NCBI GenBank assembly: GCA_946405145.1
Contig: CAMJGE010000004.1
Span: 116,642 to 180,641 of the forward strand
From: an uncultured Prevotella sp.
GTDB lineage: Bacteria; Bacteroidota; Bacteroidia; Bacteroidales; Bacteroidaceae
Direction: 5' to 3'
DNA length: 64,000 bases
The translations under genes were made by a program, and so were the position numbers. The notes under the pieces were generated by a model that was not told the DNA's origin, did no database searches, and saw nothing but the letters and a program-made list of their open reading frames with translations. Position 1 is the stretch's first letter, and each line of letters starts with the position of its first letter. Of the stretch, positions 4,092 through 6,530 are shown piece by piece.

Positions 4092-4162
4092 ATTTGAAAG
4101 AGATTAGTAGTTAATAAATAAAGGTTCAGAATCTTTCGATCCTCAGCCTCTTTTACTTTTTG

Positions 4163-4230
4163 TCGGGATTACTGGACTCGAACCAGCGACCTCGCGCCCC
4201 CAGTAGCTAGCCAACTGGCGCTAAATCCCA
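4163..4230 (-). pseudogene. tRNA-Pro-like remnant (duplicated 3' part, damaged D and anticodon arms)
   Basis: 41 bp (4161-4201) identical to 5013-5053 of the intact tRNA-Pro; only 68 nt; anticodon stem lost. Confidence 0.8.
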
Positions 4231-4267
4231 CTGAAAATCAACGATTTCTGCTATTCTTCTATCTTAC

Positions 4268-4291
4268 GGTTTACATCTGGGTTTACTTTTG
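4268..4291 (+). repeat. Arm-site-like repeat, left copy (GGTTTAC twice, 12-bp period)
   Basis: GGTTTACATCTGGGTTTACTTTTG. Confidence 0.6.
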
Positions 4292-4377
4292 TACACCGTT
4301 TGATTAGACATTAAATAATTTCAATTCTCGCTTTGATCCACTTGGAATCGGTTACAAAATTACAGCAAAAAGAGGAT

Positions 4378-4404
4378 AAATGCAAATAATATTGCATTTT
4401 TTTT
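4378..4404 (+). terminator. Terminator-like hairpin
   Basis: AAATGCAA-ATAATA-TTGCATTT followed by a T tract. Confidence 0.5.
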
Positions 4405-4723
4405 CTAAATCGCAGTCATTTTGTTAGAGAAATAAGATTCCTCCATATTTCCAATTCTGACAGAAACTCATATATTTAGCAAAGTTTATTTGACATAATC
4501 AGCTATTAGACTCTTATTCTTTTCGGTGGCGAAGTTACGAATAGTTTTTCAGATAGCAAGCAAACTCCCAATAAAAAAGTGACAATTTAACAAAAAAGAG
4601 GCATAAATCACCTTGTATAGATGAAATATGCCTCTGTGTTTATTAGAATCGGAAATCAAAAATAGAATCTCCAAATCGGTAGCCATTCACCTTTTTACCA
4701 TCTCCCTAGTTAGGAAACAAAAA

Positions 4724-4783
4724 TTCCCAGCCTGGGAATGAAATGTTCCCAAACTGGGAACAAAGTATTCCCATTAGGGGGAA
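4724..4783. repeat. Three TTCCC-N5/6-GGGAA palindromes at exact 22-bp spacing
   Basis: Palindromes start at 4724, 4746 and 4768: TTCCCAGCCTGGGAA, TTCCCAAACTGGGAA, TTCCCATTAGGGGGAA. Confidence 0.85.
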
Positions 4784-4895
4784 TATTTCGCAGCAATAAG
4801 GGGCACTTATTTCAAGATAAGTGGCGGTTATTCCTGAATAAATATTAGGTATCGTAAAAAAAACTATCACTTCATTTGTCTGATGAACCATCCTT

Positions 4896-4919
4896 GGTTT
4901 ACTTCTCGGTTTACTTTTG
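4896..4919 (+). repeat. Arm-site-like repeat, right copy
   Basis: GGTTTACTTCTCGGTTTACTTTTG; 22/24 identical to 4268-4291. Confidence 0.6.
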
Positions 4920-4967
4920 AAGTAAACCAGCACGTCAACCGCATTCACGCCGTTTTGAACGGAATAA

Positions 4968-5006
4968 AAGAAAAGAGCCCGAAAATCTACTGATTCTCAG
5001 GCTCTT
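4968..5006 (-). terminator. Intrinsic terminator of tRNA-Pro
   Basis: Minus strand AAGAGCC...GGCTCTT stem followed by TTCTTTT. Confidence 0.6.
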
Positions 5007-5014
5007 AACCTCTG

Positions 5015-5087
5015 TCGGGATTACTGGACTCGAACCAGCGACCTCGCGCCCCCCAGACGTGTGCGCTACCAACTGCGCTAAATCCCG
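5015..5087 (-). tRNA. tRNA-Pro (GGG)
   Basis: Minus strand CGGGATTTAGCGCAGTTGGTAGCGCACACGTCTGGGGGGCGCGAGGTCGCTGGTTCGAGTCCAGTAATCCCGA; acceptor stem pairs; loop CTGGGGG. Confidence 0.9.
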
Positions 5088-5276: not shown

Positions 5277-6530
5277 ATGGAACAATATAGACTTACAGCT
5301 CCACAACGGCTTGACGTCACCGTCGAGCTGCCAGCCTCTAAGAGTATTTCTAACAGAGCACTGATTATCTACGCGCTCAGCGGAGGCACCCAGCTGCCTG
5401 AGAATCTCAGTGACTGCGACGATACAGAAGTAATCATCAAGGCACTCCAAGAGATGCCTGAAGAGATTAACATCAAAGCCGCTGGTACTGCCATGCGGTT
5501 TATGACAGCCTACCTGAGTGTGGCTGGTGGTACGCATGTGCTGACAGGAACGGAGCGTATGAAGCACCGTCCGATAGGGATCCTCGTGGACGCCCTCCGG
5601 TTATTGGGTGCAGACATCACGTATGTGGGCGAAGAGGGTTTTCCACCACTCCGCATCAACGGTAAGAAGCTGGAGGGCGGACTGCTGGAGATACCTGGCA
5701 ACGTGAGTTCACAGTACATCTCTGCCCTGTTAATGATCGGACCGAGTCTGAAAAAAGGACTCACCCTGAGACTCACAGGTAACATCATCTCAAGACCTTA
5801 TATCGACTTGACACTGTGGACCATGCGTGAGTTTGGGGCTGATGCCGACTGGAGTACAGTGGATACCATCACAGTGAAACCAACGCCTTATCAGAGTCGT
5901 CCCTACTTCATCGAGAACGACTGGAGCGGTGCCAGCTACTGGTATGAGATTATGTCGCTGATACAGGATCAGGATGCTGAGTTAAGGCTTTCAGGACTGA
6001 TGGACGGTTCGAAACAGGGCGACTCTGTGACACGGTATATCTTCAGCCTGCTGGGCGTGAAGAATAAGTTTGAGACGAAGAAGGTGGGTATCCCCCAGAC
6101 AGTGACAGTGGCAAAGAACGGCCGTTGCGTGTCGAAGTTGGAATACGATTTCGTGAACTCGCCCGATCTGGCGCAAACCTTCGTGGTGACCTGTGCCGCC
6201 AAAGGCATCCCCTTCCACTTTACAGGTCTCTCTACCTTGAAGATCAAAGAGACGGACCGTATTGAGGCCCTGAAGAAGGAGATGCGGAAGCTGGGCTTTG
6301 TGTTGAAAGACAGAAACGACAGTGAGCTGATCTGGGACGGTGAGCGCTGTGAACCAGACTTCGAACAAGGCATCGACACCTATGAGGATCATCGTATGGC
6401 ACTCTCTATAGCCCCTTTTGCCTGTATCCATCCAGGACTGATCATCAACAATCCGCAGGTGGTGACTAAGTCGTACCCCCATTTCTGGGATGACCTGAAG
6501 AAGGCTGGATTTGAGATTGAGAGATTATGA
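5277..6530 (+). CDS. aroA: 3-phosphoshikimate 1-carboxyvinyltransferase (EPSP synthase)
   Basis: LPASKSISNRALI, GTAMRFMTAYL, KETDRIEAL and DHRMALS motifs. Confidence 0.95.
   Translation: MEQYRLTAPQRLDVTVELPASKSISNRALIIYALSGGTQLPENLSDCDDTEVIIKALQEMPEEINIKAAGTAMRFMTAYLSVAGGTHVLTGTERMKHRPIGILVDALRLLGADITYVGEEGFPPLRINGKKLEGGLLEIPGNVSSQYISALLMIGPSLKKGLTLRLTGNIISRPYIDLTLWTMREFGADADWSTVDTITVKPTPYQSRPYFIENDWSGASYWYEIMSLIQDQDAELRLSGLMDGSKQGDSVTRYIFSLLGVKNKFETKKVGIPQTVTVAKNGRCVSKLEYDFVNSPDLAQTFVVTCAAKGIPFHFTGLSTLKIKETDRIEALKKEMRKLGFVLKDRNDSELIWDGERCEPDFEQGIDTYEDHRMALSIAPFACIHPGLIINNPQVVTKSYPHFWDDLKKAGFEIERL

Follow-up and report, generated by a model that had tools for sequence, protein, structure and literature searches.

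A probable gutted shell of a tyrosine-recombinase element at tRNA-Pro(GGG) in a rumen Prevotella genome

Within a window of 64,000 nucleotides, the whole stretch of DNA that we analysed, a 0.85-kb stretch beside tRNA-Pro(GGG) appears to be the gutted shell of an integrative element, with both recombination ends kept and the integrase and a toxin-type cargo gene lost. We favour, with a probability of roughly 0.85, the reading that a tyrosine-recombinase element inserted at tRNA-Pro(GGG) and that its integrase and cargo were then lost, leaving a shell like a cis-mobilizable element (CIME). The stretch is a clear small case of a decayed element of a type already known and not a new system. The host genome is a rumen Prevotella MAG, 85% complete, whose AroA protein has RUG473, RUG14503 and RUG116 as its nearest named genomes, and the element sits far from the ends of a 180-kb contig.

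The ends of the element

The stretch is bounded by an exact 41-bp repeat that reproduces the 3' half of tRNA-Pro and, inside it, by a 24-bp repeat identical at 22 of 24 positions. Both had been described in a sequence-only reading, which took them for attL/attR-like ends with sites resembling integrase arm sites, and both were confirmed. The features of the stretch are as follows.

4161-4201, minus strand: attL core, displaced tRNA-Pro 3' half, identical to 5013-5053
4202-4229, minus strand: element-borne tRNA-derived 5' half, shortened, ending in GCGCTAAATCCC; pattern common to four other elements
4234-4344, no strand: left end of the element, conserved and containing the left arm pair; 95% identity with a stretch in G037
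4268-4291, plus strand: left arm-type repeat pair, two GGTTTAC motifs 12 bp apart
4486-4521, minus strand: zeta-toxin-like gene scar, five initial and six final codons with the stop, in frame (KNKSL joined to IADYVK and stop); start codon changed
4507-4661, minus strand: 5' end of the lost zeta-like gene, upstream region and hairpin, 87% identical to G067 (L093 1257-1411)
4703-4773, no strand: dispersed TTCCCANNNTGGGAA palindrome cluster, within a block at about 4662-4888
4896-4919, plus strand: right arm-type repeat pair; overlaps or abuts the integrase start in G380, G147, G097 and G187
4920-4928, minus strand: third arm motif, inverted (AAGTAAACC)
4973-5006, minus strand: terminator-like hairpin, element-borne, for the restored tRNA-Pro (identified by eye; relatives have similar hairpins there)
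5013-5053, minus strand: attR core, within the restored tRNA-Pro gene
5014-5087, minus strand: intact tRNA-Pro(GGG), the integration target, adjoining aroA (5277-6530)

The two cores are identical across 41 bp. This exact core takes in the tRNA sequence between the anticodon loop and the 3' end, in keeping with tRNA attachment sites of the anticodon-centred class (PMC4383910). The left copy goes beyond a 3' half, with a shortened and altered 5' half adjoining it that terminates in the tRNA's own 12 bp (4218-4229, the same as 5075-5086). As a functional second tRNA this copy was rejected, being several bases short and folding without a proper anticodon arm. On the right, the GGTTTAC pair is about 95-117 bp away from the edge of the core, and on the left about 67-90 bp; the inverted motif GTAAACC follows the right pair at 4922-4928.

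We searched for the same ends in up to 399 congeners and found them in a few. With at most one mismatch, the arm pattern occurred at 10 sites in 8 of the 399 congeners, against a single match for a reversed-pattern control, and nine of these 10 sites fall in tRNA-Pro elements, which argues that the pattern is not due to chance. The tRNA-mimic pattern was present in exactly five of the 399 genomes, and its control gave no match. In G037 (L095 8161-8271), the left arm region of the element stands without tRNA sequence and amid other sequences.

Intact, truncated and emptied relatives

Matching ends at tRNA-Pro enclose, in G380, a 10.1-kb element with a 411-aa tyrosine integrase (domains Arm-DNA-bind_5, Phage_int_SAM_5 and Phage_integrase), whose start overlaps the right arm pair and whose gene reads away from the tRNA. 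An integrase 87% identical to it occupies the corresponding place in G187, where the element is split across two contigs, and in other relatives the gene is truncated beside the arms, with 163 codons left in G147, 87 in G097, at least 24 at locus L189, about 11 in G383, 7 in G171 and 5 in G405. G171 holds a 1.3-kb version of the element with a RelE/HigB-type toxin and an HTH antitoxin (HigBA-like pair) and without an integrase. In G147 (L244 4124-4687) the integrase breaks off at codon 163, and its reading frame continues into the C-terminus of a serine resolvase; this resolvase is one carried by a related element, and the fusion is a deletion joint.

The arm motif agrees between both ends in each two-ended element, being GGTTTAC in the window element and G171 and of the GGTTGAC type in G380 and G187, and this end-to-end match fits a single arm-binding integrase per element, which would bind these repeats. 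Full-length or near full-length relatives of the G380-type integrase, 38-48% identical, are found on Bacteroidales plasmid and short faecal phage records; no close named relative was found. That the integrase came from a phage or plasmid was considered and set aside, the matches being only relatives below 60% identity in unannotated short faecal phage and Bacteroidales plasmid records.

The interior of the window element, about 0.8 kb, contains no credible ORF of 60 aa or more, as the sequence-only reading had judged, and the G380 integrase used as query gave no match in the element interval. Its content can be followed by comparison with G067 (contig C68), where the right end is followed first by a hairpin and an upstream region and then by the zeta-toxin-like gene itself, intact at 191 aa (Pfam Zeta_toxin). 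In the window, the last codons of this gene are kept exactly at 4486-4508 and its middle is deleted in frame. Because the upstream region and the last codons remain and the rest is deleted, the window copy appears to have arisen from a larger element through gene loss. At L164, a zeta-like gene 87% identical to that of G067 lies 141 bp from tRNA-Pro.

Further along the interior, positions 4585-4703 are 99% identical to G323, and the block at about 4662-4888 with its dispersed TTCCC palindromes is missing from G405 and G067 at the corresponding place. The TTCCCANNNTGGGAA palindromes form clusters with a spacing of about 20 bp, noted at 4703-4773 and at L003-L008, and such clusters are present at several further places in the window's own genome and in relatives. 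The hairpins mentioned in the sequence-only reading thus comprise the tRNA terminator, one next to the lost zeta gene, and the dispersed TTCCC palindromes; a reading of them as one structure of the element was discarded in view of these three separate origins.

Taken together with the locus described below, these relatives bear on what the sequence-only reading had proposed. Its attL/attR interpretation is borne out by congeners with the same ends and by empty sites, its comparison with arm sites by an arm-domain integrase that starts at the right arms in G380, its suggestion of a lost integrase by the gene at the corresponding place in G380 and G187, and its decayed-island alternative directly by the gene scars. 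Of the things it had suggested looking for, empty tRNA-Pro sites exist in seven congeners and larger elements with arm repeats and an integrase in G380 and G187; multiple copies did not materialise, the element being single-copy in its own 85% complete MAG. Neither of the findings that the reading had named as refuting it came about.

Decay by itself can account for the window copy. We nevertheless weighed the rather improbable alternative that the shell is a functional miniature non-autonomous element, moved in trans by a helper integrase encoded elsewhere, as MITEs use transposase. The 41-bp cores have stayed identical with no evident tRNA function to preserve the left one, the arms are intact and of matching allele at the two ends, G171 provides another element that has intact ends and no integrase, and several truncated copies have the integrase cut within its first 11 codons and the arms spared; that copies without an integrase have kept their arms hints at continuing use. 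However, only one copy exists in the own genome, where a MITE-like element would be present in several near-identical copies; no cognate helper integrase was found in that genome (85% complete), its best match to the G380 integrase being just 31% identical; the gene scars, and the partly truncated integrases elsewhere, resemble ordinary decay; and the window, G405 and G067 copies may derive from one deletion, so that their breakpoints are not all independent. A more specific version, which we hold to be about as improbable, is that the window and G171 shells are selected miniature integrative elements, made of core and arms, which cognate rumen Prevotella tyrosine integrases move in trans and which exchange toxin-antitoxin or other cargo at tRNA-Pro.

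The tRNA-Pro locus and its empty sites

In the window, as in many congeners, tRNA-Pro(GGG) lies next to aroA. Empty sites were found in seven congeners (L129, L134, L157, L160, L162, L169 and L191), where a conserved block of SPOR, folE and membrane protein X genes, in some cases with a B3/4-type gene, stops some 55-75 bp short of tRNA-Pro and aroA and a single tRNA-Pro is present; the comparison of empty and occupied sites is drawn from rumen Prevotella congeners of other species. The alternative that an old tandem duplication of tRNA-Pro left a decayed left copy with unrelated DNA in between is highly improbable, since, although the left copy covers nearly the whole tRNA and ARAGORN calls its G171 counterpart a tRNA-Pro, the relatives carry an integrase between the ends, the interval contains integrase arms, the 3' half is exact and the 5' half is not, that 5' half shares one pattern across five elements, and the empty sites have one tRNA.

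Returning to the decayed integrative element, the folE block of its own contig (C4) is located to its left, at window coordinates -2827 to -503, and is separated from attL by 4.66 kb with four genes, after which the 0.85-kb element follows. These 4.66 kb are missing from the empty-site relatives and are not accounted for by the element. The region (window -484 to 4091) encodes a Gfo/Idh-type protein, a substrate-binding protein, orf322 and a clostripain-family protein, and at L170 the binding-protein gene is flanked by two tRNA-Pro core copies. The folE block turned out to be the appropriate marker of empty sites; the clostripain gene left of attL was rejected for this use, with no close ortholog beside the tRNA of the relatives.

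In other relatives the interval between the folE block and the tRNA ranges from 0.3 to about 7 kb and holds differing genes, and because of this variation, starting from the 55-75 bp of empty sites, we regard the 3' flank of tRNA-Pro(GGG), with the folE block on one side and aroA on the other, as a hotspot of integration in rumen Prevotella. G323, among the closest relatives, differs in the arm type of its left end and lacks recognisable arms on the right, which indicates that tRNA-Pro loci are mosaics. Its own mosaic island at tRNA-Pro, 20 kb long (L089 1666 to L090 8409), carries genes for a DpnI-type nuclease, an SbcD-like nuclease, WYL proteins, an ADP-ribosylglycohydrolase and a HigBA-like pair, and the arms of its left end are of a third type (GTGACG) that is present beside the tRNA in L125 as well.

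Tandem heptamers near the tRNA were counted at 15 of 60 loci, compared with 24 of 1200 control windows, an excess that suggests that several integrase specificities act at tRNA-Pro. Other tandem heptamers, with 11-bp spacing and a fixed distance of 74-79 bp from tRNA-Pro (L140, L149, L163, L166, L174, L183, L194, L195 and others), point to a possible second class of arm sites for integrases there.

Proposed origin and comparison with known systems

In the proposed sequence of events, a tyrosine-recombinase element would have entered tRNA-Pro(GGG) through a shared core that extends from the anticodon loop as far as the 3' end of the tRNA. At the right end, the element's own 3' half and terminator would have restored the tRNA, and the original 3' half would have been displaced to the far side as attL, beside the tRNA-derived 5' half of the element. 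The parent integrase gene would have started at the right arms and pointed to the left. The window copy would then have been stripped of all integrase coding sequence and of almost the entire zeta-toxin-like cargo gene; it holds a repeat-bearing block inside, and both cores and both arm sets survive. We infer the crossover point and the order of losses in the window copy. Excision would rebuild an attP composed of the core and two arm sets and, with no integrase of its own, would need a helper; in principle, an incoming integrase with matching arm specificity might excise the candidate shell.

The case is a worked example of how an interval without genes or integrase can be traced to a mobile element through its ends, which is possible because stages between the intact element and the shell survive in relatives. 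The arm-site alleles that it yields (GGTTTAC, GGTTGAC and GTGACG) can serve in tests of integrase specificity, and it marks the 3' side of tRNA-Pro(GGG) as a hotspot of integration in rumen Prevotella. Within the literature searched, no paper dealt with Prevotella tRNA-Pro islands of this kind.

Among known systems, CIMEs have lost their integration genes and kept attL and attR (PMC5704250); the term also implies an ICE/IME ancestor whose transfer genes were lost, and mobilisation through accretion with a related element. The window element is probably much like them, since it likewise keeps attL and attR, lacks an integrase and occupies a tRNA site used by many elements. It differs in that it is shorter than 0.9 kb, with no gene left and its arm-type sites also intact, and in that transfer genes were not recognised in its related elements (the window copy has none, and Pfam picked out none among the nine ORFs of the 10-kb G380 element, where no mobilisation genes were recognised either) and no tandem helper element is found in the genome. 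The tRNA-targeted genomic islands catalogued by Islander (PMC4383910) are marked, as here, by a regenerated tRNA and a displaced fragment with a core reaching the anticodon loop, and the window element presents the intact tRNA gene and the displaced fragment in the same orientation; however, Islander demands an integrase gene in the interval, which the window copy lacks. The integrase-less ssrA islands of Dehalococcoides (PMC3146451) offer a similar picture of islands without an integration module beside related ones with it, at a single RNA gene, but those involve serine recombinases and retain genes, whereas the window element would be the empty shell of a tyrosine-integrase element, whose parent-type integrase, that of G380, has the domain make-up of the Bacteroidales Arm-DNA-bind_5 / Phage_int_SAM_5 integrases.
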